A program made the translations under genes and the position numbers. Below are positions 5,424-22,474 of a stretch of 39,525 bases of DNA, in pieces (positions within the stretch are counted from its first letter, which is position 1; every line of letters begins with the position of its first letter). The notes below the pieces were generated by a model, which did not search any database, was not told the DNA's origin, and saw only the letters and a program-made list of their open reading frames with translations. Source of the DNA: a virus; IMG/VR virus record IMGVR_UViG_3300027800_000027, positions 1 to 39,525 of that record; one strand, written 5' to 3'.

Positions 5424-5708
5424 TCATTTCGGCTCCTGTACTCGCGTTCCGACCAACACGGTCTTTGCAAATGCACGCCTATCGTTGTCGTCGCTTTCGC
5501 CAGCAATAAGCAATTCCGTAACAAGATAATCTAGCTTATCTTCCGCTTTCTTTCTCGCCTCGACCTCTTCCGCGTACATGGCGAGGAGACGGGCGCTTAG
5601 CTTACGCGTTCGTGCGCTGCTCTTTCCCTTATCTTGATCGAAGGCGCACCATGCGGAAAATTGATTAACCAACTTCTCAAACTCGTCCAGCTTCTCAAAC
5701 TCGTTCAT
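5424..5708 (-). CDS. Coiled-coil hypothetical protein, 94 aa
   Basis: The start at 5708 follows GGCGGAG by two bases; an upstream in-frame ATG would overlap the previous gene by a longer stretch. The N-terminus contains a tandem duplication, EFEKLDEFEKL, encoded by two nearly identical units of about 18 bases (5672-5708). Residues 30-70 are charged and helical (ARTRKLSARLLAMYAEEVEA). No enzyme motif is visible. Confidence 0.65.
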   Translation of the reverse strand: MNEFEKLDEFEKLVNQFSAWCAFDQDKGKSSARTRKLSARLLAMYAEEVEARKKAEDKLDYLVTELLIAGESDDNDRRAFAKTVLVGTRVQEPK

Positions 5709-6031
5709 TCTCCGCCGCCTTTCAGCGCGTTGCCGATGATGCAATCAGGAGCGTGGTGGTCAGTTTCCAAATTACCGCACGACAAGCATCCGCGAATTAT
5801 TTTGTACTGTTTGTCTTGCGGATCATCATTGATCCAGTACATAGTGGAGTGTCCTGACCACTCTAGTTCCTTCAGCGCCTCGCGAAGTTTTGCGTTTTCG
5901 GCGCGGAGTTGGTCTTCGACGGTAATAATCTGGCACATAATACCGCCGCATCGTTGGCATTCGTATGATTGCGGATCGTGTTCTGTTCGTCCGCATACAT
6001 CGCACTGATAATCGCCTTTCAATTCACTCAT
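5705..6031 (-). CDS. Zinc-ribbon and coiled-coil protein with the LEW-CxxC-HxPDC module, 108 aa
   Basis: An N-terminal ribbon has two CxxC pairs (CDVCG at 10-14, CQRCG at 25-29). A short coiled coil follows (AENAKLREALKELEW), and then a C-terminal module with CLSCG and HHAPDCIIGNAL. The same C-terminal module occurs in the genes at 6182 and 16615. Members of this small phage family are probably zinc-binding adaptors of unknown function. Translation starts from AGGAGG directly after the leader element at 6047-6150. Confidence 0.75.
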   Translation of the reverse strand: MSELKGDYQCDVCGRTEHDPQSYECQRCGGIMCQIITVEDQLRAENAKLREALKELEWSGHSTMYWINDDPQDKQYKIIRGCLSCGNLETDHHAPDCIIGNALKGGGE

Positions 6032-6046
6032 CGCATCCTCCTAATC

Positions 6047-6150
6047 AAAAAGCCGCCTCCAACCTATATACCGATTCTTGCTTAGGGATTCGGGCGTGTG
6101 GTTGGAAACGGCTCTTTGACTGGTATAAAAACACCCTGAAATCCCTAAGC
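6047..6150 (-). promoter_or_regulatory. Structured leader with interleaved inverted repeats (A-B-A'-B') ending in a U-tract
   Basis: Read on the minus strand, GCTTAGGGATT (6150-6140, A) pairs perfectly with AATCCCTAAGC (6090-6080, A'). AGCCGTTTCCAACC (6113-6100, B) pairs over 14 bases, with two G-U pairs, with GGTTGGAGGCGGCT (6064-6051, B'). B lies inside the A-A' loop and B' lies outside, so the helices interleave. They could form a pseudoknot or compete with each other. B' runs straight into TTTT (6050-6047), so B-B' looks like a terminator. AGGAGG and the ATG at 6031 follow at once. A begins six bases after the -10 box. Confidence 0.7.
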
Positions 6151-6156
6151 AGTTAT

Positions 6157-6185
6157 ATTATAGCTCGCTGTAATACCTTTGTCAA
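6157..6185 (-). promoter_or_regulatory. Consensus sigma70 promoter inside the leftward operon
   Basis: On the minus strand TTGACA (6185-6180), a 17-base spacer and TATAAT (6162-6157) match both hexamers exactly. The start is expected at about 6150, the first base of the structured leader. The -35 box overlaps the last codons of the gene at 6182. It would supply the genes from 6031 down to 4926. Confidence 0.85.
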
Positions 6186-6577
6186 CTACCAATATTTAGC
6201 GCCTTATCCAGGGCGCAATCCGGCGCGTGCTTTCCTCCAGACTGCGGCATTTCGCAGATGTAGCAGCCCGGCACAAGCTCGTGCTTTTCATTGCGGACTG
6301 TATCGCACCACTCGAGCGTTTTTAGGACGGCGCGGAGTTGGTCAATTGGGGCTTGCGGCACGTTGTCGAAATCAAGCCATGATTTGTGATATGTCCACCC
6401 GCCAGACCAAGCGTCTTTGCCAATTTCTATGTAGAAATCATTGCCACATGGTAAGGCAACATTATCAACATCTATAACCGTTCCTGCAAGTTTGCTCATT
6501 TCGTCATTGAATACGAACGGAACATCCCAACCGGTTACGACCGTACCTACTGGCATATCGCGCACTTTTGCTCTCAC
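6182..6577 (-). CDS. Hypothetical protein with a C-terminal zinc-binding LEW module, 131 aa
   Basis: Translation begins at GTG 6577 with AAGGTGAG upstream. The N-terminal half (residues 1-75) looks like a small beta-barrel (GTVVTGWDVPFVF, AGTVIDVDNV) of the kind used for binding. The C-terminus, VLKTLEW followed by CYIC and KHAPDCALDKAL, repeats the module in the proteins at 5705 and 16615, with Cys-x2-Cys and His-x3-Cys as likely zinc ligands. The role is unknown. It overlaps an exact-consensus promoter at its 3' end. Confidence 0.72.
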   Translation of the reverse strand: MRAKVRDMPVGTVVTGWDVPFVFNDEMSKLAGTVIDVDNVALPCGNDFYIEIGKDAWSGGWTYHKSWLDFDNVPQAPIDQLRAVLKTLEWCDTVRNEKHELVPGCYICEMPQSGGKHAPDCALDKALNIGS

Positions 6578-6580
6578 TTC

Positions 6581-6757
6581 TCACCTTCCTTCCACATGGC
6601 GTACCAGCTTCTTGTTGTCCGCTTTCACGGCTTTTGCGTCCAACCCGCGGCGGTAGCAATCCACGGCGCAGGACGCGCACGACTTGCCTAGCGAGTACAC
6701 CACGGCTAGGCACTCTCGCTCTGGCGTCGGCGGTTGTGTTACGGTACACAGATTCAT
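6581..6757 (-). CDS. Small cysteine-rich protein, 58 aa
   Basis: A short gene fills the gap between its neighbours. The ATG at 6757 overlaps the upstream stop as ATGA, and GAGAGGAAAG lies ahead of it. Residues 23-36 read YSLGKSCASCAVDCYRRG, giving three close cysteines plus Cys4 and Cys16, which suggests a metal or disulphide site. The ending is basic (KKLVRHVEGR). The frame ends at TGA 6581-6583, four bases before the GTG start of the next gene. No family is recognised. Confidence 0.65.
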   Translation of the reverse strand: MNLCTVTQPPTPERECLAVVYSLGKSCASCAVDCYRRGLDAKAVKADNKKLVRHVEGR

Positions 6758-7407
6758 GCTTTCCTCTCAATCTCTGTGAGCCACACCCAGGGCGAATCCT
6801 CGTATGGCATTGGATACGTATCGTTCCAGAATATTTTGAATACTTCTTTGCGCGGGTGATCAAGTGTTTTTAGATCAGCAAGATTGTCGCAATACATTCC
6901 AGCTTCTATTGCGTCGAATTCGTCAACGTCCTGCACCCGCATGACGCGAGTGTTGCCGACTACGCCGGACAAACGCGACGCCCAGCGCGGCATGATTACT
7001 GAACTAATCCACGGCGAAGCCTCTGACCCGTCCTTGTTGAATTTATATCCGCCATCTTCGTCGCACGCCATTACGTTTGGATTACTCGCTGAATACCAAA
7101 CGCATGATTGATCTTCGTTGCCATCTGGCGTATAAACCAACATGCCGTTGTCGTCTCTTTTGCGCGTCCACGTCTCGCGCCCCCACCAGTCGGAACCTGG
7201 AGCGCCGAAAGGCGAATACTTTTCGATAAGTCGCGCAGTGGAAACGTCAGACCAAATTCCGTAATGCTTCGATCTGAAATACCAGTCAGAGCCGGGAACA
7301 TTGGTGCATTCTCTAAATTCTGTCAGCTTCACCGGCCTGATCAACAGCACCCGCCCCTTGCCGAGCAGGGCGCGTACCTCGTGGTCGCGCAGGTTGATTG
7401 CGTTCAT
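6754..7407 (-). CDS. ASCH/PUA-like phage protein, 217 aa
   Basis: The protein has the layout of a widespread phage family often labelled morphogenetic or ASCH-like: an N-terminal MNAINLRDHEVRALLGKGR, RETW near residue 78, MPRWASRLSGVVGNTRVMRV (about 140-159) with a following DVDEFDAIEAG, and an ending of SPWVWLTEIER. These are hallmarks of the PUA/ASCH fold, which binds RNA or modified bases. That suggests handling of nucleic acid, although no activity is established. It overlaps both neighbours by four bases. Confidence 0.72.
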   Translation of the reverse strand: MNAINLRDHEVRALLGKGRVLLIRPVKLTEFRECTNVPGSDWYFRSKHYGIWSDVSTARLIEKYSPFGAPGSDWWGRETWTRKRDDNGMLVYTPDGNEDQSCVWYSASNPNVMACDEDGGYKFNKDGSEASPWISSVIMPRWASRLSGVVGNTRVMRVQDVDEFDAIEAGMYCDNLADLKTLDHPRKEVFKIFWNDTYPMPYEDSPWVWLTEIERKA

Positions 7408-7592
7408 TCTTCCTCGACTTTCTCAAAACGGTCGGCGCTGTAGTCGCATGACATGCAAACATCATCGTGGATTACAACGCGGTTCAGCATTGGAATAACT
7501 TGGGTTACAAGATATTCTCTACCAACCGCAATATCCTCGTACCAGTATTTCTTATCCACACACCTCACCTTGTCGCCAGCTTTCAGTTCCAT
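7404..7592 (-). CDS. Small SH3-like protein, 62 aa
   Basis: The whole protein reads as a compact beta-barrel: MELKAGDKVRCVD, VGREYLVTQVI, NRVVIHDD and a final DYSADRFEKVEEE. This pattern is typical of small phage SH3-like or KOW-like domains. It has two cysteines (CMSC) near residue 46. The function is unknown. It overlaps the upstream gene by 10 bases. Confidence 0.65.
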   Translation of the reverse strand: MELKAGDKVRCVDKKYWYEDIAVGREYLVTQVIPMLNRVVIHDDVCMSCDYSADRFEKVEEE

Positions 7593-7786
7593 CGTTCACC
7601 TTCTTTCATTAGCGCATAGTCTATGTCGGAAACCGGTTCGAAATATTGAAGATGTGCGAACAGGAAAGCAATAAATTCATTTCCTCTAAATAGGCACGTG
7701 TCGTCAACAACTTCAAATAGCTCTCCTGCTTTTGCGCTCTTATCTGGATAATCTTTGATACAGACGGCCCAATGGTATTCAGTCAT
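7583..7786 (-). CDS. Small hypothetical protein related to the C-terminal half of the 16111 product, 67 aa
   Basis: The start at 7786 is chosen because AAGAAGG lies just upstream and because it removes a poor basic extension. The opening EYHWAVCIKDY with GELFEVVDD parallels EYHWCVCVSDV with GDVLEIKYP in the plus-strand protein at 16111, and both proteins end with a D-x-x-YA element. It is probably a small barrel of unknown role. Confidence 0.65.
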   Translation of the reverse strand: MTEYHWAVCIKDYPDKSAKAGELFEVVDDTCLFRGNEFIAFLFAHLQYFEPVSDIDYALMKEGERWN

Positions 7787-7788
7787 CG

Positions 7789-7983
7789 TTAACCTTCTTC
7801 TTCCTCTGGGTTTCTGTCTTGCCATTCTTTCAGGCAGTCCATTCCGCGAAGATTGCAGACGTAGGTTTCGTCCTCAACTTCTTTCATGTCGCCCAGGTCG
7901 CGGACTTCGCCGCAAATAGCGCACACCGCATGATAAATTCCGTCTGGTGGTTCGCGGGTATCCTCGATGTCTCGGTCGTTCAT
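7789..7983 (-). CDS. Small zinc-finger-like protein, 64 aa
   Basis: The sequence has CAIC (residues 21-24) and a second pair of cysteines, YVCN and DCLKEW, about 20 residues later, with acidic flanks (NPEEEEG at the end). A four-cysteine metal site is plausible. AGGAGAG precedes the ATG at 7983. No family is recognised. Confidence 0.65.
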   Translation of the reverse strand: MNDRDIEDTREPPDGIYHAVCAICGEVRDLGDMKEVEDETYVCNLRGMDCLKEWQDRNPEEEEG

Positions 7984-8025
7984 CGCGTCTCTCCTATGCG
8001 TGAAATATTCGCATCCCGTTAGCGG

Positions 8026-8436
8026 TTACTTCGTGTTGCGGATTACTACGTCAAATCCACCGTAACAACCGTTATGCTCGTTGTGCGTTTCGAGCGTAAA
8101 TGTTCCCCTGCTTGTATTCACAAGCAAAAATTGTACTTCATCATGATCGCCGTATTCGTCGGGAACATCTGGCGCTTCTCTCAGTTCGCACCCCAAGAAT
8201 ATCGCTCCATTGAATTCTTCCGGCTTGTCGTCGGTACGAATGTAGCGACTTTCACAACACGATTGATCATCATCCCATATTTTTATACCCGTTTTGTCTG
8301 TAAACATAAGTATCAAAACGTTGTCGTCAATCTTCGCACTTTCAATTACCTTGTTGATGGCGGCTAAGTGAGCTTTAACTGTTTCTTCGTTGCCACACAA
8401 ATAGTTAATCATTACTCCCATTCCTGGTTGCCCCAT
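8026..8436 (-). CDS. DUF7448-like hypothetical protein, 136 aa
   Basis: The central and C-terminal parts match the pattern I know from DUF7448-type phage proteins: IKIWDDDQSCCESRYIRTDD, GAIFLGCELREAP, EVQFLLVNTSRGTFTLETH and the closing NEHNGCYGGFD. It is a soluble mixed alpha/beta protein of unknown function. The first ATG (8436) is used, with AGGAG upstream; in-frame ATGs follow at the sixth and ninth codons. A 6-bp hairpin (8451-8470) lies between this start and the upstream stop. Confidence 0.7.
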   Translation of the reverse strand: MGQPGMGVMINYLCGNEETVKAHLAAINKVIESAKIDDNVLILMFTDKTGIKIWDDDQSCCESRYIRTDDKPEEFNGAIFLGCELREAPDVPDEYGDHDEVQFLLVNTSRGTFTLETHNEHNGCYGGFDVVIRNTK

Positions 8437-8486
8437 TTCATTCTCTCCTACCGGTGATCGGCTCCACCGGAAGAGGGTTAGATGTG

Positions 8487-9671
8487 TTACAGATCCATTT
8501 CTTGCTGACCGGCGTCCTTCAACGATTCCGGCCAGATGCTTAGCAATTCTTTCTTTGCCATTTCGTCAATGACATATTCGCCGCTGCCGTTGTCTGCCTT
8601 GACCGGCTTCAACCAATCCAGCAGAGCCTTGACGACAGTTCCGTCTAAATCTTTCAGGCTGTCTTTTCCGAACATATACTTGATGCACGAGTGACGGATC
8701 TTATCAGCGTCCGCATTACCAGCGAACGGAAGTTCCAACATGGACGCAAGCAATCCGATTTGTTGCGGACTTACTTCTACAACGCCATTATACGTTGCGG
8801 CTTTCTTATAAAGCAACTCGCGTAGATGTTCTGGCGTAAATGGGCGCGTCGGTTTCTCTTGGACCTGGTCCACAACTTCCGCCGGTATCGCATCCGCGCT
8901 GGCTTTTACCGCATCGATAAGCGGCGTGGGGGTGGTGGGCGGTGTGTGTACCGTTGGCTTGCTTTCTGGCCGGGGGGTGGTGGGCACGTGGTAATCTTCA
9001 TCCGCAAAATCTTCCATATCCTGCGTGAAGTATTCGCTCGTTCCGGTAGCGATCAGGGTGGCTGCAACAAGTGCGCGTTTCTGCGCCATTTTAAGGATAG
9101 TATTGACGGATTCTGCTACATCTGGATTTGCAATCTGCCCGACGTCCTGCGATTCGATCAGCTTGTCGCCGTTCGCAAATTTTGCACCACAGCCACCTTT
9201 ATTCTTGAAACACAACCAGCCTCCGCCGTATTCTTCCTTGCCCTTGATGATCGCTTCTGCGCCACACTTCGGGCATTTACGGCCAGACTTGCGATAACGG
9301 TATTTCTTCTCCCACGAGTTGCAGGAACCGTCAGCCGATGCGATGCGCTGATCACCGTGGAACAGAACACACTTGATGCGGTAGTAGAAGAACGGCTCTC
9401 CGTTGTGGTTCGAACCCGTCCAATCTTCCACGGTCTGTACGTCAAGGAACTCTGGCGAAAGACCGAAGAAACTGGTCATTTTCTCGGCGCCCGGCTTTAG
9501 CAGCGTTTTCTTGTCTGTGCCGGGGATGGCTCCAAAGTCAACGCCCTCGCGCAGAATACTTTTGACGAACTCGTGTTTTACGCCGTAGGCTTTCTGAATG
9601 TCAGCCAAAGCCATAACCGGCATAAGTGAGTTCTGCTGCTGGTACACTACAATTCCATTATCGTCTGTCAT
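8487..9671 (-). CDS. Phage ssDNA/recombination-associated protein candidate, 394 aa
   Basis: The N-terminal 220 residues follow a common phage family with the signatures SFFGLSPEFLDVQTVEDWTG, SCNSWEKKYRYR and MAQKRALVAATLIATG followed by SEYFTQDMED. I know the family from early regions near SSB-like and nuclease genes but not its biochemistry; a role in DNA annealing or recombination is inference. A zinc ribbon is inserted at 133-161 (CPKC, then Cys154 and Cys161). Residues 229-255 are a proline/threonine linker, and a helical C-terminal domain ends in an acidic QQEMDL. It is the largest gene on the minus strand. Confidence 0.65.
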   Translation of the reverse strand: MTDDNGIVVYQQQNSLMPVMALADIQKAYGVKHEFVKSILREGVDFGAIPGTDKKTLLKPGAEKMTSFFGLSPEFLDVQTVEDWTGSNHNGEPFFYYRIKCVLFHGDQRIASADGSCNSWEKKYRYRKSGRKCPKCGAEAIIKGKEEYGGGWLCFKNKGGCGAKFANGDKLIESQDVGQIANPDVAESVNTILKMAQKRALVAATLIATGTSEYFTQDMEDFADEDYHVPTTPRPESKPTVHTPPTTPTPLIDAVKASADAIPAEVVDQVQEKPTRPFTPEHLRELLYKKAATYNGVVEVSPQQIGLLASMLELPFAGNADADKIRHSCIKYMFGKDSLKDLDGTVVKALLDWLKPVKADNGSGEYVIDEMAKKELLSIWPESLKDAGQQEMDL

Positions 9672-9841
9672 TTTTCATCCTCCACTATATGATCTTGCAG
9701 GATATTCCCGCAAGTTACGCAGCGCACAAACGGATCATCTTCTTCGTGCGTGATCGGACTGCCATCTTCGCCAATTCCCAACGTGACTTCGTGCGGGTCG
9801 CTGACGATCTCGGTCGTCTCGTGTTGGCAATTAGCGGTCAT
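9668..9841 (-). CDS. Small zinc-ribbon-like protein, 57 aa
   Basis: The start at 9841 is preferred: GGGGTGA lies upstream and a longer reading would overlap the previous gene by 68 bases. The protein has a CQH near its N-terminus and a CVTCG at 44-48, compatible with a Cys-His-Cys-Cys metal site, with acidic flanks. It ends four bases inside the next gene. The function is unknown. Confidence 0.6.
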   Translation of the reverse strand: MTANCQHETTEIVSDPHEVTLGIGEDGSPITHEEDDPFVRCVTCGNILQDHIVEDEK

Positions 9842-10169
9842 CGTCGTCACCCCACCCATTCGGATTGGCAACAGTTCTGGGATCGCCTGTACAGGCATCT
9901 GGTGGGTTCTCGGCCGTATCCCAACCGTTCTTGTCTATCACGGCTTGCATCTGTTCGCGGATGTTGTCGAATTGCGGGTGGCTGACCGATACAGGATCGC
10001 CGCCGATGCTGGTGTATACCGTGTCCTGGGGAGCCTTGATCTTGCGGTTATGGTTCACCTCGAACAGTAGCCACGAATCGCAACTGCCTTCGCTGGAATA
10101 CATTACTTCGGCAAATGCCCGCGTCCACGGGTAGTCAGTCGTACCATGAAGATCGTCATAAATTGCCAT
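9831..10169 (-). CDS. Hypothetical acidic protein, 112 aa
   Basis: GGAGG precedes the ATG at 10169 by seven bases. The protein is soluble with an N-terminal alpha/beta part (WLLFEVNHNRKIKAP, QDTVYTSIGGDPVSVSHP), a helix at 66-82 and an acidic disordered tail ending GWGDDDDR. No family is recognised. Confidence 0.68.
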   Translation of the reverse strand: MAIYDDLHGTTDYPWTRAFAEVMYSSEGSCDSWLLFEVNHNRKIKAPQDTVYTSIGGDPVSVSHPQFDNIREQMQAVIDKNGWDTAENPPDACTGDPRTVANPNGWGDDDDR

Positions 10170-10181
10170 TGGTTGCCTCCG

Positions 10182-10343
10182 TTACTTTTTGATAAACCAG
10201 AATGCGCCACCGATCACAATGAATCCACCCCACAGCATACGGGCGTAGTCATTTTGAAATGATCCAATGACCATGTTTGCCAATCAGTACGATCCAAGAA
10301 ATGATCCGATGCTTGTGGTTAGAATTGTTTTTAGTAGTTTCAT
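10182..10343 (-). pseudogene. Small membrane-protein frame split by an in-frame TGA
   Basis: GGAGG (10355-10351) places the start at ATG 10343. The frame encodes MKLLKTILTTSIGSFLGSY and stops at TGA 10284-10286, then stays open in the same frame to TAA 10182-10184. The second part, from ATG 10274, is 30 residues with a hydrophobic stretch (MLWGGFIVIGGAFWFIKK). The whole would be one 53-residue small membrane protein. It may be a broken gene, two coupled peptides, a readthrough product or a sequencing error. Confidence 0.5.
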
Positions 10344-10371
10344 TTCCATTCCTCCGATAAATTTGATTTGC

Positions 10372-10423
10372 TTTATAGTAGCACGACTTGCGCGTCAAAG
10401 AAAGTGACATTCGTCTTAAGTTT
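10372..10423 (-). promoter_or_regulatory. Leftward promoter with a 21-base upstream element
   Basis: On the minus strand a 21-base element (10423-10403, containing ACTTAAGACGAATGTCACT) is followed by TTGACG (10398-10393) and TATAAA (10377-10372) or, at 17-base spacing, TAAAGC. The same 21 bases occur in the opposite orientation at 16545-16565 ahead of a homologous promoter. This is the expected main promoter of the leftward operon. Confidence 0.65.
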
Positions 10424-10774
10424 CGCAGTAATTTGGCACTTGCTTGTGACAACCGAAAGTCGTAAACTGTTTATAGGTGGATGGCAGCGCGAAAACAGCT
10501 ACGGCTGGCGTAAAGCGGAACCCGGCTCCACGGTGGTGGGAGTGGCCTTACTGGTTTCATCTTCGCTCCCACCACCAAAGATAATCCGCCGACTGTGGCG
10601 GACGGAAGAAGCGGTTACCCACGAAGCATCGGGAACGCCGGACGCAACCGGCACGACGATGGCGGTAAAGCAATGACCGCTTATAAGGATAACTGGCGTA
10701 CACAGAAGCATTGTACGGCCGCCATCGTCCCACTAAGCAGCACAATTACTATCAAAAGCTATCAGGAGGAAAAT
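10424..10774 (+). other. Non-coding divergent region with a series of hairpins
   Basis: No convincing gene is present in these 351 bases. Structures on the plus strand are: GGTGGTGGGAG (10532-10542) with CTCCCACCACC (10566-10576); TCCGCC with GGCGGA (10585-10602); GCCGG with CCGGC (10637-10652); and GACGATGGCGG (10655-10665) with CCGCCATCGTC (10719-10729). A weak rightward promoter may lie at 10447-10476 (GTGACA, 18 bases, TTTATA). A structured 5' leader, an operator region or a replication origin are all possible. AGGAGG at 10764-10769 begins the next gene. Confidence 0.55.
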
Positions 10775-11011
10775 ATGCAAATTTGCCAGAGTGACACTAA
10801 TCCGAATACCTGGCTTGCGGTCGTTCGCCCAGGCGAGGAGCTTGTTGTCGCGTTCGAAGGCCGTGACGGTCGCGTAGTTACAGACTTCCGCAACGGCGAA
10901 GCCAAGTGCACGACATTTGGTGACAGCCGGTTAGACATGGACGCGAACGAGATCACGACTTTCTTCAACTATCCGATTGAGGCTGAATTTCAGGAGAAGG
11001 TGACGGCATGA
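10775..11011 (+). CDS. Hypothetical protein, 78 aa
   Basis: The AGGAGG at 10764-10769 sets the start at 10775, although the frame is open upstream through the structured leader. The protein looks like a small all-beta fold (WLAVVRPGEELVVAFEGRDG, VVTDFRNGEAKC) with an acidic helical end. No family is recognised. Its stop overlaps the next start (ATGA), and its last codons are part of a 16-base repeat found again at 11121. Confidence 0.7.
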   Translation: MQICQSDTNPNTWLAVVRPGEELVVAFEGRDGRVVTDFRNGEAKCTTFGDSRLDMDANEITTFFNYPIEAEFQEKVTA

Positions 11012-11136
11012 CAGACAAATCCGCTGATCCCAGCATAGAACGATTTCCGGTCTATTTTGACGGAGCAGGCGACAAGGGAAACAAGTGGGATCAATTCGAT
11101 TATGTAGTTTGGATTTCCAGGAAGGTGACGGCATGA
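11008..11136 (+). CDS. Short hypothetical protein, 42 aa
   Basis: The ATG overlaps the upstream stop, and GAAGG lies seven bases ahead. The sequence contains RFPVYFDGAGDKGNKWDQFD and ends ISRKVTA, the same four final residues (KVTA) as the upstream protein because both ends lie in a 16-base direct repeat. It is too short for a family call. Coding is supported by tight ATGA junctions on both sides. Confidence 0.55.
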   Translation: MTDKSADPSIERFPVYFDGAGDKGNKWDQFDYVVWISRKVTA

Positions 11137-11645
11137 TCAACGCCAAAATTGATTATAAGAAGAACGAGAAGTTTGACAACTTATACACACCAGAACGGGC
11201 GGTAAAGCCATTATTGAACTATGTACACACCGGTTTGAAAATTTGGGAATGCTGCGATCACACCGGCGATAGCAACATATCAAAAGTGTTACGAGATTAC
11301 GGGTGCGAGGTTATTACAAGTGACATTAGATCTGGCTTTGACTTCCTGACGGATACTCAAACGCAGGACTTTGACATTATCGTCACCAACCCGCCATATT
11401 CGCTCAAGGATAAATTTCTACAGCGATGCTATGAATACGGAAAACCGTTCGCGCTACTTTTGCCGCTGACCGCGCTTGAGGGTATTCAGCGGTCAAAGAT
11501 GTTTCAGAAGTATGGAATATCAGTTATCGTCTTGGATCGCCGTATAGACTTCACCGGTAAGAAAGCGTGCTGGTTCAATGTTTCATGGTTTACTCATGGA
11601 ATAGTTGGAGATTATCAACTTTATTTTGAAGAGGTATTCGCATGA
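11133..11645 (+). CDS. Adenine-type DNA methyltransferase-like protein, 170 aa
   Basis: The motif IIVTNPPYS (residues 82-90) is the catalytic motif IV of N6-adenine methyltransferases. A motif-I-like stretch, WECCDHTGDSNISKVL (38-53), precedes it with TSDIRSG as motif II. It lacks the GxG of a textbook motif I, so it is a divergent short member without a separate target-recognition domain. It probably modifies phage DNA. The ATG at 11133 is used because it overlaps the previous stop. It overlaps the next methyltransferase gene by four bases. Confidence 0.75.
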   Translation: MINAKIDYKKNEKFDNLYTPERAVKPLLNYVHTGLKIWECCDHTGDSNISKVLRDYGCEVITSDIRSGFDFLTDTQTQDFDIIVTNPPYSLKDKFLQRCYEYGKPFALLLPLTALEGIQRSKMFQKYGISVIVLDRRIDFTGKKACWFNVSWFTHGIVGDYQLYFEEVFA

Positions 11646-12256
11646 AAGTGCTCGTTGCGTGTGAGTACTCTGGAATCGTTCGTGACGCCTTTATCGCGCA
11701 TGGTCACGACGCTATGAGTTGCGACCTGCTGCCAACGGAGCGACCCGGCCCACATTACCAGGGTGACGTAATGGACATTATCAACGACGGATGGGATCTG
11801 ATGATCGGACATCCGCCATGCACGTATTTGAGTTACGCCGGCATAGCACACTGGAACAAACCCGGCAGACTACAGAAACGCCTTGATGCCTTGAATTTCT
11901 TCGCAATGTTGTGGTTGGCTCCAATAGATAAAATCTGTCTTGAGAATCCGAAAGGATGTGCAAGCCCGACAATCGCAAAATATACGCAGGAAATCCAACC
12001 ATATTATTTTGGTGATAGACAATTCAAAACTACCTGGCTATGGTTGAAAAATTTACCGCCATTGGTTCATTCTCGATGCGATACATTTTTCGAAACTCAA
12101 ACGCACACAGAGAGGCCGGAACCAATATCCGTTGATGATACCGAACGGAAGAAAAAGAGATATTTCACGGATGCTCATACGCGCGATCCATACGAACGCG
12201 CAAAGACCTTCCCCGGAATCGCGGAAGCAATGGCGTCTCAATGGTCGCTGCTATGA
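11642..12256 (+). CDS. Cytosine-C5 methyltransferase-like protein, 204 aa
   Basis: The N-terminus MKVLVACEYSGIVRDAF replaces the usual FxGxG of motif I, then HPPC (residues 57-60) supplies a PC dipeptide as in motif IV and LENP (100-103) corresponds to the ENV motif. This arrangement is known from small phage proteins annotated as DNA cytosine methyltransferase-like. At 204 residues it is shorter than true C5 enzymes and shows no target-recognition domain. It could be a non-canonical modification enzyme. Confidence 0.7.
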   Translation: MKVLVACEYSGIVRDAFIAHGHDAMSCDLLPTERPGPHYQGDVMDIINDGWDLMIGHPPCTYLSYAGIAHWNKPGRLQKRLDALNFFAMLWLAPIDKICLENPKGCASPTIAKYTQEIQPYYFGDRQFKTTWLWLKNLPPLVHSRCDTFFETQTHTERPEPISVDDTERKKKRYFTDAHTRDPYERAKTFPGIAEAMASQWSLL

Positions 12257-12354
12257 AATTCACCCGATCCCGCACGACGTGGCCTGAGTACGCGCTATAC
12301 GCCATGATAATTATTTACGTGATTTTTACGGCAGTTTCTATCATTTTCGGATAA
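12253..12354 (+). CDS. Very small single-span membrane protein, 33 aa
   Basis: The ATG overlaps the upstream stop (ATGA at 12253). Residues 13-32 (YALYAMIIIYVIFTAVSIIF) form one membrane helix after a basic N-terminus (KFTRSRTTW). It lacks its own ribosome site and would depend on coupling. The function is unknown. Confidence 0.5.
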   Translation: MKFTRSRTTWPEYALYAMIIIYVIFTAVSIIFG

Positions 12355-12358
12355 GGTG

Positions 12359-12367
12359 TGCTATACT
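12359..12367 (+). promoter_or_regulatory. Extended -10 promoter ahead of the second interleaved leader
   Basis: TGC precedes TATACT (12362-12367), matching the extended -10 form that does not need a good -35 box, and none is visible. The start is expected near 12374, the first base of the structured leader. The same six-base distance from -10 box to leader occurs at 6157-6150. Confidence 0.6.
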
Positions 12368-12373
12368 GTAAAC

Positions 12374-12475
12374 GTCACAGGAAGTAGTTTTTTTATCAGC
12401 CAATAACCTAATGAATTACTCCCGCGCGAACTGCTTTCCTGTGACAAGAAAAGTTGCTGACGCCGGGAGTTTTCT
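12374..12475 (+). promoter_or_regulatory. Second leader with interleaved inverted repeats (A-B-A'-B') and a U-tract
   Basis: GTCACAGGAA (12374-12383, A) pairs perfectly with TTCCTGTGAC (12436-12445, A'), extendable to 14 bp with one bulge. ACTCCCG (12418-12424, B), inside the A-A' loop, pairs with CGGGAGT (12464-12470, B'), which is followed by TTTCTT. The order, the start at +1 and the final U-tract before the ribosome site match the leader at 6047-6150, although the sequences differ. A T7 run (12388-12394) follows A. It precedes the methyltransferase gene at 12491. Confidence 0.65.
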
Positions 12476-12490
12476 TATCTAAGGATCATT

Positions 12491-13426
12491 ATGACAGCAA
12501 AGCTAATGCAAGGTGACTGCTTACAAGTTTTGAGGACGCTTGATGATAAATCAGTAAACTGTATCGTCACATCACCGCCATACTACGGACTACGCGATTA
12601 TGGTGTAGCTGGCCAGATCGGACTAGAACCTACACCCGATGAGTACACCGCGAAGCTCGTAGAGGTATTTCACGAGGCAAGGCGGGTACTGCGCTACACC
12701 GGTACACTCTGGTTAAATTTGGGCGATAGTTATGCTGGTTCGTCTGGGTCAAAAAATGGCAATCTAAAGCCCAAAGACCTTATTGGCATTCCCTGGCGCG
12801 TGGCATTCGCATTACAGGCGGATGGTTTTTATCTGCGCTCTGACATTATTTGGGCGAAACCTAATCCAATGCCGGAAAGCGTAACCGACCGCCCTACAAA
12901 AAGCCATGAGTATATTTTCTTGCTGTCAAAATCGGAGCGGTATTACTACGACAACGAAGCGATAAAAGAGCCGTGCGTTTGGTCCTCAGTTGAACGTCTC
13001 GGACAGAATATCGAAAAACAAAATGGATCGTCGCGTGTTCCAGGTAAATCCAACGGGAATATGAAAGCCGTTTGTTCTGGCAAAGATTGGAATCCGTCAA
13101 TGGCGGGCGGTGCGGTTGGAATAGAAAACCGAAAACATCTACCGTATCCGATGGCAAATAAGCGCGACGTATGGACTGTAACCACAAAGCCGTATAAAGA
13201 AGCACACTTTGCAACATTTCCGCCAGATCTGATTGAGCCGTGTATTCTGGCAGGTTGTCCGGTTGGCGGAACCGTGCTCGACCCATTCAATGGGTCCGGA
13301 ACGACGGGGGCAGTATCCATCAAACATCACCGGAATTACATTGGGATTGAACTTAACGAAAAGTACATAAAGTTATCAGAACGAAGATTCGGCAAAGTAC
13401 AGCCAACGCTAGTCGAGGTGGAATAA
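12491..13426 (+). CDS. Site-specific N4/N6 DNA methyltransferase, 311 aa
   Basis: This is a beta-class amino-methyltransferase: motif IV TSPPYYGLRDYG (residues 27-38) is near the N-terminus, and motif I, LDPFNGSGTT (263-272), is near the C-terminus, followed by IGIEL. SPPY is more typical of N4-cytosine than N6-adenine enzymes. Length and motifs agree with a complete active enzyme. The middle (about 130-240) is the likely recognition region. It probably protects phage DNA from restriction. It follows the interleaved leader, so it may be expressed separately from the genes upstream. Confidence 0.88.
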   Translation: MTAKLMQGDCLQVLRTLDDKSVNCIVTSPPYYGLRDYGVAGQIGLEPTPDEYTAKLVEVFHEARRVLRYTGTLWLNLGDSYAGSSGSKNGNLKPKDLIGIPWRVAFALQADGFYLRSDIIWAKPNPMPESVTDRPTKSHEYIFLLSKSERYYYDNEAIKEPCVWSSVERLGQNIEKQNGSSRVPGKSNGNMKAVCSGKDWNPSMAGGAVGIENRKHLPYPMANKRDVWTVTTKPYKEAHFATFPPDLIEPCILAGCPVGGTVLDPFNGSGTTGAVSIKHHRNYIGIELNEKYIKLSERRFGKVQPTLVEVE

Positions 13427-14283
13427 TGGCCGGTTATCGCCAGGTTCACACGCAGTTTTGGAAAGACGAATACATTATCGAACTTGAACCGCTTGAGCGA
13501 TATTTGTATCTATACTTCTTCACGAATGAGTTATCATCAATATCCGGAATATACAAACTTCCTCTCAAGGTTATCGTCAATGAAACCGGATTAGAAAAAG
13601 TATTTGTGCAGGAAGCCATAGCCAAGTTTCAGAATGATAAAAAGATAGCTTACGGCGATTCGGTGGTGTGGGTTGTGAACATGGAAAAGTATCACCACAA
13701 CGCCAGCGACCGGACGCAAAAGAAAGTGACGGCGGACGTTGATCTTATCTCTGATTGTGGCGTAAAGAGGATGTATCTATACCATAAAGAAACCGGAATA
13801 TACAGTATCGATACAGTATCTATACCATGCACACAAAGAGAAAGCAAAAAAGAAATCGAAAGCGAAAAACCATCGCCTGACGGCGAGAAAGTGGAGGATG
13901 ATTTGAGAACAGCAGACGATATTCGCAGAGGCATTGCAGAACGAGCAGCAGCTAAAGCACAGGCCGATCAATTCAAGCCTGCTCAGGTTGCGGACGTATT
14001 CGAGAAATGGCCGGTGGACGTTATCGACTTCTGCCGCGAGTTCTCGCGCATCCGCGGGATCAAGCCAACTGTGTCACAGAAAACAGATTGGATACAGGGT
14101 GCGCGTGAGTGCATCGGGCTGAATATGCGACCGCCGGATATAAACGGTGTGGTGCACTGGATGGTAGACAAAGAGCGCGATTGTCCGCGCCCAGGATCGC
14201 TAATCAAAGCGTGGCAGGAAATATCAGCGAAAAAGCCAGCGCAACCGGCACAACAAGAACGACCGGTACAAAGGAGAGCGTGA
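13426..14283 (+). CDS. Replisome organiser-like protein (DnaD-like N-terminus), 285 aa
   Basis: The N-terminus, MAGYRQVHTQFWKDEYIIEL with YLYLYFFTNE and GIYKLPLKVIVNETGL, is the winged-helix start typical of phage replisome organisers and DnaD-like initiators. A charged linker (about 128-185) leads to a C-terminal domain with FCREFSRIRGIKPT and PRPGSLIKAW. It probably binds the origin and helps load the DnaB helicase encoded at 16911. The start shares one base with the preceding stop (TAATG). Confidence 0.75.
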   Translation: MAGYRQVHTQFWKDEYIIELEPLERYLYLYFFTNELSSISGIYKLPLKVIVNETGLEKVFVQEAIAKFQNDKKIAYGDSVVWVVNMEKYHHNASDRTQKKVTADVDLISDCGVKRMYLYHKETGIYSIDTVSIPCTQRESKKEIESEKPSPDGEKVEDDLRTADDIRRGIAERAAAKAQADQFKPAQVADVFEKWPVDVIDFCREFSRIRGIKPTVSQKTDWIQGARECIGLNMRPPDINGVVHWMVDKERDCPRPGSLIKAWQEISAKKPAQPAQQERPVQRRA

Positions 14284-19710: not shown

Positions 19711-19783
19711 GCCTCATTAGCTCAACGGACAGAGCGAATCGGTTCTAACGATAGTGTTGGTGGTTCGAATCCACTATGAGGCT
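19711..19783 (+). tRNA. tRNA-Arg (anticodon TCT)
   Basis: The acceptor GCCTCAT pairs perfectly with ATGAGGC. The D-stem is GCTC/GAGC with GG in the loop, the anticodon loop is GTTCTAA, and the T-loop is TTCGAAT with stem GGTGG/CCACT. The anticodon stem has an A-A mismatch at its outer pair. CCA is not encoded directly after the discriminator. It reads AGA, a rare codon in many hosts. Confidence 0.85.
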
Positions 19784-19786
19784 CAT

Positions 19787-19859
19787 GCCACATTAGCTCA
19801 TCTGGTAGAGCGGAGATTTTGTAAATCTATGGTGGATTGTTCGAGACAATCATGTGGCT
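19787..19859 (+). tRNA. tRNA-Thr (anticodon TGT)
   Basis: The acceptor GCCACAT/ATGTGGC is perfect, the D-stem is GCTC/GAGC with GG in the loop, the anticodon loop is TTTGTAA and the T-stem GATTG/CAATC encloses TTCGAGA. The outer anticodon-stem pair is a G-A mismatch, as in the preceding tRNA. CCA is not encoded. It shares its first 16 bases almost exactly with the tRNA-Arg, suggesting duplication. Confidence 0.85.
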
Positions 19860-20879: not shown

Positions 20880-21251
20880 ATGGCGGGCATATCAGAACGC
20901 TCCGCAGCAGAACGTGTAACAAATGCCGATTTAGCCCTTCTTTTGGGGGGGATTGACACGCGCCTCACAGTTATCGAAGGGACGACCGGCCGGCTTGACA
21001 AAGCTATCAACGGCAACGGAAAGCCGGGCTTATTGGAAGATTACAGATGCTTACAGGTTGACTTCAATAATCACATCAAAGAGGCAAAAGATCAAAAGGA
21101 ACGCGCAGACGCTGATAAAAAGACCGCCATTGACAAAAGGGAGAAATTCTCTGCCAGGACTTGGGCGATTGTAATGGCGGTTATCGGCGCGTTCATCACG
21201 CAGACGGTCGGCCTCGTAATACTGTTTATCAGGACTGGTGCAATCAAGTGA
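20880..21251 (+). CDS. Coiled-coil protein with a C-terminal membrane anchor, 123 aa
   Basis: Residues 20-90 form helices with heptad character (GGIDTRLTVIEGTTGRLDKA, KEAKDQKERADADKKTAIDK), and 98-118 form a membrane helix (WAIVMAVIGAFITQTVGLVI). This layout is known from XhlA-like and other phage lysis-associated membrane proteins. Translation would be coupled to the upstream membrane protein. It overlaps the next GTG start. Confidence 0.6.
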   Translation: MAGISERSAAERVTNADLALLLGGIDTRLTVIEGTTGRLDKAINGNGKPGLLEDYRCLQVDFNNHIKEAKDQKERADADKKTAIDKREKFSARTWAIVMAVIGAFITQTVGLVILFIRTGAIK

Positions 21252-22474
21252 GCGAATCTATTACATGGACTAACTGCCAGGTAAGACTTGGCGAACTCAA
21301 AGAATGGGAAGGCAACCCGGCCGAGATTGGCAAAGAAGCAGCCGGTCGCCTTGTTGAATCATTCAATGAGTTCGGGCAGGTCCAGGCGCTGGCGATCGAT
21401 CCTGATAACCGGCTGATAGATGGACACCAGCGATTATCCGTATGGCTGCATAAATTCGGCGCTGATATGCTCGTGGATTGCCGCCAGTCATCTCGTTTGC
21501 TTACCGACAAGGAACGCCAGAAGATAGCAGTATACCTGCGCTCCGCCGCGGTCGGTCGATACAATTGGGATATTATTGCAAATTGGGATACCGGCGATCT
21601 GAAGGAATGGGGATTTGATAGCCATACCCTGGATGATTGGAATACAGATGTTCGTGCGCTGTCGAATTTCTTGGAAAGTAGCAAGCCAGATCAGGCAGAC
21701 GCAGAACCGCAAATTGACCGCGCCGCTGAACTCAATGAGAAGTGGCAGGTAAAGACTGGCGACTTATGGCAGATAGGCGAACACCGGTTATTGTGTGGGG
21801 ATTCGACTGTTTTGAGCGACGTTGAAAAATTAATATTCGGAAATAAAGTATTCGTATTTAGCGATCCCACTTATGGAATTGACGTTGTTTCTGGATCAAA
21901 GGTTGGTGGAGCCGCCTCCACCAAATTCGGCAAAGTTGGGGTGGAAAATTGGGTAGATTCACATGAGTATCCAGAGATTATCGGTGATGATAGCACGGAT
22001 ACGGCGCGTAATTTCTATGCTGTTTGTACCTCATTGAGAATAACTGATTTTATTCTATGGGGCGGAAATTACTTCACTGATTTTCTTAGTCCGTCTCGTT
22101 GTTGGCTGGTGTGGGATAAGCAAAACACTGGGAACTTCGCCGATGTTGAATTGGCGTGGACTTCATTCGATAAAAGCGCAAAGAAATACGAGTGGTTATG
22201 GAATGGGCTAAGCAGAGAAGGTAATAGGAAAGACGAGCTGACTAGCCGTGTTCATCCTACCCAAAAACCCGTTGGACTTACTCAAGAAATAATGAATGAC
22301 TTTCCAGCCGATATTTATTATGATGGCTTTCTCGGTAGCGGTTCTTTTATGGTTGCCGCTCACAATGTAGGCAAGAAGATGTATGGCATTGAAAAAAGCG
22401 TTGACTACTGCGCTGTCATACTCGAACGCATGGCGACTGCGTTTCCAGAATTAGAAATCACAAAGATACTGTGA
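21248..22474 (+). CDS. ParB-like and DNA methyltransferase fusion with altered catalytic motifs, 408 aa
   Basis: The GTG at 21248 overlaps the upstream stop. Residues 10-135 are a ParB/sulfiredoxin-like domain with LIDGHQRLSVW (56-66). Residues 165-408 are an amino-methyltransferase domain with GDST, HPTQKP (336-341) and YGIEKS. The catalytic DPPY motif is replaced by DPTY (206-209), and the SAM-binding DPFxGSGT is DGFLGSGSF (359-367). ParB-methyltransferase fusions are common next to phage terminase genes. The changes suggest reduced or redirected activity, perhaps a DNA-binding role in packaging. Confidence 0.85.
   Translation: MSESITWTNCQVRLGELKEWEGNPAEIGKEAAGRLVESFNEFGQVQALAIDPDNRLIDGHQRLSVWLHKFGADMLVDCRQSSRLLTDKERQKIAVYLRSAAVGRYNWDIIANWDTGDLKEWGFDSHTLDDWNTDVRALSNFLESSKPDQADAEPQIDRAAELNEKWQVKTGDLWQIGEHRLLCGDSTVLSDVEKLIFGNKVFVFSDPTYGIDVVSGSKVGGAASTKFGKVGVENWVDSHEYPEIIGDDSTDTARNFYAVCTSLRITDFILWGGNYFTDFLSPSRCWLVWDKQNTGNFADVELAWTSFDKSAKKYEWLWNGLSREGNRKDELTSRVHPTQKPVGLTQEIMNDFPADIYYDGFLGSGSFMVAAHNVGKKMYGIEKSVDYCAVILERMATAFPELEITKIL

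Follow-up and report, generated by a model that had tools for sequence, protein, structure and literature searches.

Two leaders of one architecture

Can two RNA leaders with unrelated helix sequences, lying on opposite strands of one virus genome, belong to a single class of regulatory element, and if so, what would such a class do? The question is raised by the window, the whole stretch of 39,525 nucleotides analysed here (virus record IMGVR_UViG_3300027800_000027). The first-pass annotation had described one layout for both leaders (-10 box, A, U-rich run, B, A', B', U-tract and ribosome site), and our analysis bears this out. It had also pointed to an extra pairing in each leader; both pairings are present, though the GCTGA of leader 2 starts at 12456, one base away from the 12455 given there. 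This pairing, C/C', sits between the A and B pairings, giving the order A-C-B-A'-C'-B', in which three helices mutually cross. The features of the two leaders are as follows.

Leader 1
6157-6185, - strand: predicted sigma-70 promoter matching the consensus (-35 TTGACA at 6185-6180, 17-base spacer, -10 TATAAT at 6162-6157)
6139-6151, - strand: helix A 5' arm, TGCTTAGGGATTT, starting at about the predicted +1
6136-6131, - strand: A2, GGGTGT, which extends helix A and pairs with A2'
6127-6131, - strand: U-rich run
6122-6127, - strand: helix C 5' arm, TATACC, supported by other class members
6100-6121, - strand: helix B 5' arm, AGTCAAAGAGCCGTTTCCAACC, with 22 contiguous pairs to B'
6079-6091, - strand: helix A 3' arm, GAATCCCTAAGCA, with A2' (ACGCCC) at 6097-6092
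6067-6072, - strand: helix C 3' arm, GGTATA
6043-6064, - strand: helix B 3' arm, GGTTGGAGGCGGCTTTTTGATT, with the U-tract inside it
5705-6042, - strand: ribosome site AGGAGG (6042-6037) and first gene, ORF 5705-6031

Leader 2
12362-12367, + strand: extended -10 box, TGC-TATACT, with a poor -35
12374-12384, + strand: helix A 5' arm, GTCACAGGAAG, extended past a bulge by TAGTTT
12388-12394, + strand: U-rich run
12396-12400, + strand: helix C 5' arm, TCAGC, supported by other class members
12418-12424, + strand: helix B 5' arm, ACTCCCG, continued by CG past a bulge
12435-12445, + strand: helix A 3' arm, TTTCCTGTGAC, with A2' (AACTGC) at 12429-12434
12456-12460, + strand: helix C 3' arm, GCTGA
12464-12479, + strand: helix B 3' arm, CGGGAGT (12464-12470), and U-tract, TTTTCTTATC (12470-12479)
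12481-13426, + strand: ribosome site AAGGA (12481-12485) and first gene, ORF 12491-13426

Nowhere else in the window are two strong helices interleaved and linked to a promoter. Leader 1 scores -62.8, as against -54.0 for the best site across 300 locally shuffled windows, and only 0.3% of shuffled windows hold at least one site with a promoter, U-tract and ribosome site. Strict contiguous helix cores were adopted for the scans. Looser scans, tolerant of many bulges and mismatches, were of no use, as unrelated window sites and shuffles also matched.

A class defined by shape

The same arrangement, built from unrelated helix sequences, recurs in 48 unique leaders on about 40 phage contigs (the window pair and at least 46 more), a census biased toward the patterns TGTCACA and TGYYTAGG and toward window relatives, from which most members come. 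In their shared layout, helix A begins at or beside the predicted start of a transcript from a sigma-70-type promoter, the three crossed pairings fit within about 105 bases, and a U-tract, a ribosome site and a gene usually follow; a U-rich run is present in most members. The notion would have been undermined had shuffled sequences matched the arrangement as often as real ones. In the fetched DNA (4.8 Mb, for the most part from phages), the scan requiring a promoter and a ribosome site instead returned 24 real sites against 0 shuffled at a score of -50 or below, and the triple-crossing scan returned 23 against 0 at -60 or below. With reversed real sequence as the control, the counts were 18 real and 0 reversed. 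When the scan was run free of any promoter requirement, a -10 box matching at least 5 of 6 bases lay 2-8 bases before A in 17 of the 20 best sites.

For an independent test, 44 matches were picked with no criterion other than the -10 box and 7-8 base pairs in A. Helix B reached the floor p-value of 1/301 in 26 of these and p <= 0.05 in 32, and within those 32 helix C was jointly significant (Fisher 4e-12). Among 47 parsed leaders, C has p < 0.05 in 26 (Fisher 1e-21) and about 16 have no significant C; these per-member tests are base shuffles with no phylogenetic model, and part of the members were found by a score that already included C. The caution that the short C matches could be chance thus holds for the window leaders taken singly, which are borderline (p ~0.05-0.09), but the pairing is secured by the other members taken together.

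Each position in helices A, B and C is occupied by 2-7 pair types across the 47 parsed leaders, and G-U pairs are present in B. In one orthologous pair of leaders (L002 and L292), the promoter and ribosome-site flanks are kept and the inner part of A, together with the whole of B and C, has changed on both arms. As far as such sequence comparisons go, the helix letters are free to vary provided both arms change together. Sequence homologs of the leaders were not found by blastn at related loci. There was no Rfam match at gathering level over the leaders of the window and 25 member-bearing loci, and permissive Rfam scans of both window leaders and one further member (L442) gave chance matches only. 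The earlier suggestion of an undescribed class of phage regulatory RNA is therefore upheld for a leader class set by its architecture, C/C' included, rather than by its sequence, which recurs in dozens of phages with no Rfam match. We conclude that the predicted leaders almost certainly form a new, structure-defined class of phage leader RNA.

Searches further afield yielded little. The pattern TGTCACA...TGTGACA without a -10 box gave 120 matches, mostly spurious, with one member among them, and the TGTCACA pattern in bacterial genome contigs gave 59 matches, mostly chance, with four contigs from Clostridia or Firmicutes resembling a related but different layout. The TAGG pattern had 0 matches in 369 and 395 bacterial genomes, a result that is weakly informative at the expected density. 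Among named phages carrying HNH genes, no member was present at any fetched locus; at these loci, the HNH gene mostly abuts or overlaps the preceding gene.

Genes behind the leaders

A selfish nuclease lies behind 21 of the 48 leaders by Pfam match (one of them, behind L442, falling below the cut-off), compared with a background of 22 selfish nucleases in 991 genes (2.2%; hypergeometric 8.5e-9 within fully read records). The kinds found are HNH, GIY-YIG, T5orf172, LAGLIDADG, endonuclease-I type and TnpB. Overall, the downstream genes are unrelated to one another, comprising nucleases, a methyltransferase, a helicase-like protein and unknowns. In the window, ORF 12491-13426 is an N6_N4_Mtase DNA methyltransferase (E = 8.8e-51), and ORF 5705-6031 encodes a zinc-ribbon-like product of 108 aa, for which all zinc-finger matches are sub-threshold. 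Viral scans found no relatives of the genes at 13426-14283 and 5705-6031. Neither the tie to homing-type endonucleases nor the reading of competing helices as an attenuator had appeared in the first-pass annotation.

How the leaders may act

The leaders may well act in cis with co-transcriptional attenuation as their main function, a reading we hold at about even confidence. In such a scheme, A·A' would fold first and keep C and B inside its loop; C' would emerge second, able to pair with C; and B' would emerge last and pair with B, forming a terminator-like hairpin whose U-tract immediately precedes the ribosome site. The race between C·C' and B·B' would set the share of transcripts that read into the gene. 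A strong host-type promoter could in this way be kept while its product, often a selfish endonuclease, is held at a low or gated dose.

Both window leaders, and the class on average, place a hairpin with a G-C base and a U-tract between the promoter and the ribosome site. Counted from the last G-C pair of B', the T frequencies at the first seven bases that follow are 0.72, 0.66, 0.66, 0.60, 0.62, 0.55 and 0.53, and 29 of 47 members have at least 5 T in 8. The U-tract is missing (at most 2 T in 8) in 11 of 47, and in these B·B' cannot for that reason be an efficient intrinsic terminator. As for the competition, among the 31 members having C at p < 0.1 the gap between C' and B' is always 0-7 bases, and in 16 of these 31 C overlaps B or lies within 6 bases of it. 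Since C' directly adjoins B', and C often adjoins B or overlaps it, many members probably cannot form C·C' and B·B' in full at the same time; from this geometry, we argue that C·C' probably excludes B·B'. The same spacing argument led us to reject, for many members, a fold in which all three helices form simultaneously. Unlike a textbook antiterminator, helix C seldom has bases in common with B. Where the linker between C and B is long (24-31 bases), C·C' would interfere with A·A' more than with B·B'.

An unlikely alternative is that the knotted leader is a sequence-free shield of the 5' end. A·A' starting from +1 would bury the 5' triphosphate, the U-rich spacer would be a ribosome standby or S1 site, and the crossing helices would resist RNase E or RNase J and pyrophosphohydrolase, giving longer-lived mRNAs from the cassette promoters. 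Mostly shape is conserved, as such a shield would have it, the 11 of 47 members without a terminator U-tract still keep B, and A adjoins the predicted +1 even in scans without a promoter requirement, although promoter adjacency is built into most selections. However, a shield leaves unexplained both the U-tract that directly follows a G-C-based hairpin in most members and the selection of a third, competing helix C.

Less probable is a cis effect on transcription itself, in which the leader modifies RNA polymerase, like HK022 put, or recruits a host factor, so that early transcripts pass later terminators. The promoter-proximal position and the recurrence of A-rich bases after A' would suit it, as would the leaders' occurrence in phages without a common gene, which implies that the partner would have to come from the host. 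However, RNAs of this kind need specific contact bases, and here the helices vary and there is no strong unpaired consensus near the ends of A.

The first-pass annotation had suggested that both gene sets could be controlled by a common trans-acting factor or ligand. That a single phage-encoded trans factor or small-molecule ligand recognises every leader of a genome and so switches these sets appears quite improbable. Several leaders do occur per genome and on both strands (two in the window, three in record G003). Yet no protein family is common to all 14 leader-bearing records compared, which leaves a common phage-encoded factor unsupported; the widest family occurs in 8 of the 14, and the copy at 21161-22474 of the window has matches to phage DNA methyltransferase and ParB-like families. 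No conserved aptamer-like core was seen either: in the profile covering the ends of A, conservation just beyond the paired bases is at most about 0.45 bits, and a ligand is unlikely because a strongly conserved unpaired core is lacking there.

We regard as very unlikely, too, that the main product is a terminated, stable small RNA of about 110 bases acting in trans, be it as a decoy, as an antisense to a sister leader or as a guide-like nuclease partner. A strong promoter, a closed 5' end and a terminator would indeed yield an abundant stable RNA, and TnpB-like nucleases, whose family uses RNA guides, are among the downstream genes. Against this, a ribosome site and start codon come directly after the leader, and the downstream genes are of unrelated folds, including a methyltransferase and other non-nucleases, so that no common RNA partner is indicated. 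It is still harder to see the complementarity as acting in DNA, as operator half-sites or recombination signals: the ends of A/A' are recurring inverted repeats (e.g. TTGTCACA...TGTGACAA) that overlap the start region, but the letters of B, of C and of the inner parts of A are member-specific, G-U pairs occur in B, and the helices keep a strand-fixed order with respect to the promoter, U-tract and ribosome site (0 in the reversed control). Finally, that these are two ordinary, unrelated hairpins alike by chance has in its favour only that C alone is borderline in each window leader, and is hardly credible: the controls, both shuffled and reversed, refute it, and 46 additional members also speak against it.

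Comparison with known systems

Regulatory hairpins are carried by the mRNAs of T4-type homing endonucleases, namely I-TevI, I-TevII, I-TevIII, segB and Aeh1 mobE (PMC2988022, PMC3014915). The T4 structures are plain hairpins by which long read-through transcripts conceal their ribosome site, and the endonuclease-specific promoters given there are middle or late, none early (PMC2988022, PMC3014915). The leaders described here likewise place a stable RNA structure before phage homing endonuclease genes. They also resemble the hairpin of seg43(25), which lies immediately before the ribosome site and leaves it uncovered, and T4 mobE, whose terminator halts about 30% of transcripts. They differ in that each leader has a sigma-70-type promoter to itself and three pairings that cross, that the ribosome site is left free, and that the class spreads over many nuclease folds and phages. 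In both window leaders, the ribosome site lies 3' of B' and not inside a helix, which sets them apart from T4-type sequestration. Complementarity of the SD to an inner segment was noticed only in L294 and L297. The T4 gene 32 operator, a single short pseudoknot to which the gene's own product binds (PMC3014915), is similar in that two leader helices cross; our leaders instead have three crossing pairings beside a promoter and before unrelated genes, and no autogenous binder is apparent.

Attenuators that use intrinsic terminators share with the leaders the sequence of promoter, alternative pairings, terminator-like hairpin with U-tract, ribosome site and gene. In the leaders, however, no aptamer was seen, no leader peptide was evident on an unsystematic look, the bases of the terminator are rarely shared by helix C, and helix sequences are not conserved. 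HEARO (HNH endonuclease-associated RNA) and omega RNA also adjoin HNH-type or TnpB-type nuclease genes, but no Rfam match to them turned up at gathering level in the window or the 25 member-bearing loci, the lengths and the lack of sequence conservation misfit, and the nucleases behind most leaders are not of RNA-guided kinds. HK022 put is a promoter-proximal folded RNA in a phage leader, and is thus alike in its position; put RNAs are sequence-specific, however, and are not known to be crossed.

What the class would mean

Structured RNA classes are usually found by sequence conservation together with covariation. The present class keeps almost no sequence and recurs in dozens of phages, though it is poorly visible to Rfam-type models, which hold nested pairs only; topology-first searches can thus uncover RNA families that current methods miss. 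We tentatively propose that this is a class defined by topology only, often accompanying selfish endonucleases that represent five or more unrelated folds, whose dose it would gate by a race between helices during transcription and with no dedicated protein or ligand. If true, the leaders would offer a compact test case for the competition of crossing helices during transcription, one RNA device would tie together unrelated nuclease folds (HNH, GIY-YIG, LAGLIDADG and TnpB-like), and phages would possess a general cassette for dosing selfish endonucleases.

Recurrence of the leader architecture

The 39,525-base window, an IMG/VR phage record with terminase, portal, capsid and helicase genes (and, at 19711-19859, two tandem tRNA genes), carries two leaders:

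Leader 1: about 6043-6162, minus strand, upstream of the ORF at 5705-6031
Leader 2: about 12362-12479, plus strand, upstream of the DNA methyltransferase ORF at 12491-13426

The first-pass annotation gave their order correctly: in both, five or six bases separate the -10 box from A, and then come a U-run, B, A', B', a U-tract and a ribosome site, where A and A' (likewise B and B') are the paired arms of a helix, written A·A' when formed. A strict scan for crossed pairs of strong, contiguous helices returned numerous sites in the window, of which only leaders 1 and 2 begin just after a -10 box. Shuffled sequence yielding this arrangement as often as the real genome would have refuted the annotation; leader 1, scoring -62.8 against a best of -54.0 among 300 locally shuffled windows, was ahead in all of them, and 0.3% of the shuffled windows held any site that combined a promoter with a U-tract and a ribosome site.

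We fetched IMG/VR relatives of three window proteins (2 Mb), and none of those tested has a leader sequence in common with the window. A structure scan of the 2 Mb found the same architecture in unrelated letters in L051, L006, L011 and L002, with 0 sites in three shuffled passes when a U-tract was demanded; L016 and L031 were found after these first four. Reading the members by eye, we saw that a third pairing, C/C', which the annotation had thought might be chance, recurs in other members (for example TTTTGCTCTA/TAGAGCAAAA in L002), giving the common order A-C-B-A'-C'-B'.

As independent tests we used two patterns whose sole constraints are the -10 box and the ends of A: TATAMTN{3,7}TGTCACAN{50,80}TGTGACA recovered 21 viral loci and TATAMTN{3,7}TGYYTAGGN{48,78}CCTARRCA recovered 35. 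Among 44 non-redundant hits, B/B' reached the floor p of 1/301 in 26 and p ≤ 0.05 in 32, and C/C' was jointly significant in those 32 (Fisher 4e-12). Whole records of leader-bearing phages supplied extra copies. Scores of -60 or lower were reached by 23 sites in 4.8 Mb and by none after shuffling; requiring a promoter and ribosome site at -50 or lower gave 24 and none, and in a reversed-sequence control (4.3 Mb of the same DNA backwards) the counts were 18 real and 0 reversed. When no promoter was required, a -10 box lay 2-8 bases ahead of A in 17 of the 20 best sites. The final set, a census that leans on two sequence words, comprises 48 unique leaders (L436 and L452 being a nearly identical pair), 47 of them parsed automatically, and several single genomes hold two or three leaders whose helices differ.

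Structure and covariation

Across the 47 parsed leaders, 2 to 7 pair types (in most cases 4 to 6) occur at each position in A, B and C, so that pairing is kept under varying sequence. L002 versus L292 illustrates this best: the promoter and ribosome-site flanks align closely, and the inner A, C and B differ on both arms with complementarity retained. Measured from A through to the end of B', the leaders vary little in length (median 105, 10th-90th percentile 95-115). After B', the frequency of T falls from 0.72 to 0.53 across seven bases; at least five T in eight follow in 29 of 47 leaders, and two or fewer in 11.

In the 31 members with C p < 0.1, C' lies 0-7 bases ahead of B' in all and at most 7 bases past A' in 29, while C overlaps B or lies within 6 bases of it in 16 and hugs A rather than B in 5. 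Given these distances, one or both of the helices next to C·C' would have to be incomplete when C·C' forms.

Individual leaders carry further features. L289, L370, L373 and L229 have a second -10-like box (mostly TGCTATNNT) inside a 24-29 base C-B linker, and the start predicted from it would coincide with the first base of B or lie close to it. The B-A' segment (CGCTCCTG / GCGCTCC) of L294 (leader from 7746) and L297 (leader from 4046) complements the ribosome site (CAGGAGCG / AGGAGCGC), so sequestration of that site may be an added feature of these two; TTGTCACA, the start of A, is repeated in the first codons of the gene.

Genes behind the leaders

Selfish nucleases make up 21 of the 48 first genes by Pfam, against a rough phmmer background of 22 among 991 genes in the same records. 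Finding at least eight nucleases among about 24 leader genes, counts matched by hand, has p = 8.5e-9.

Selfish-nuclease first genes, by Pfam match
HNH: L286b, L297, L288, L370, L229, L291, L033, L437, L442 (L442 under the curated cut-off)
GIY-YIG: L373, L367, L455
T5orf172: L015, L374, L438, L446
LAGLIDADG: L439
Homing repeat with endonuclease-I domain: L449
TnpB-like (OrfB_IS605 / Cas12f1-like): L435, L440, L447

A 5' element of this kind is unexpected ahead of TnpB-like genes. The remaining first genes encode a methyltransferase (in the window), a helicase-like protein, putative replication proteins, zinc-ribbon proteins and unknowns. In L294, the ORF behind the leader (ORF 7864-7941) opens like an HNH/AP2 endonuclease (MKEIQLSQGK) and stops after 25 codons, and appears to be a broken copy of one. 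A putative replication (DnaD-like) protein gene stands directly behind the leader in L002 and L292; the window gene after the methyltransferase (13426-14283) resembles it by eye, and on that likeness the methyltransferase looks as if inserted between leader and replication gene.

Mechanism

The annotation suggested a common trans-acting factor for both gene sets; a universal phage-encoded one is unlikely, because no single protein family occurs in every one of the 14 leader-bearing records compared. A serious rival is that the knotted leader shields the mRNA 5' end, with A·A' burying that end and the crossing helices resisting RNases. Members without a U-tract keep this explanation in play, and they are the main difficulty for the mechanism that we favour, a cis-acting attenuator. 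The leaders have promoter-like sequences and three pairings, with a U-tract in most members; where transcription starts, that it terminates, that the helices compete and that dose is affected, we infer. In such an attenuator, a strong promoter would drive the leader and A·A' would fold first, after which C·C' would race against the terminator-like B·B', just ahead of the ribosome site.

Relation to known systems

In T4, control of homing endonucleases is exerted by RNA hairpins, which cover the ribosome site on early transcripts; for seg43(25) of Aeromonas phage 25 a very stable hairpin is predicted immediately 5' of a ribosome site that stays free, and mobE carries a partial terminator (PMC2988022). 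A pseudoknot is present in the leader of T4 gene 32 (PMC3014915). Leaders starting with TGTCACA immediately past a -10 box occur in four Clostridia/Firmicutes contigs of the genome_contigs collection (L308, L326, L359, L361); their A·A' stem is long, and Rfam has no match over the leader. In L308, L359 and L361 an inner segment seemingly pairs with one past A', and a distinct terminator hairpin and the ribosome site come after it. The four look like relatives of the phage class, carried by bacterial genomes or prophages. One leader-bearing contig also matches int-alpA RNA (RF02996; L434 3240-3305).

No Rfam family with the topology A-C-B-A'-C'-B' was found, nor anything with it in the titles and abstracts returned by searches of the freely accessible literature. 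We rate the leader class as categorically new because of its topology, missing sequence conservation and gene association taken together; if its function is plain attenuation, the mechanism itself would be of a known kind.
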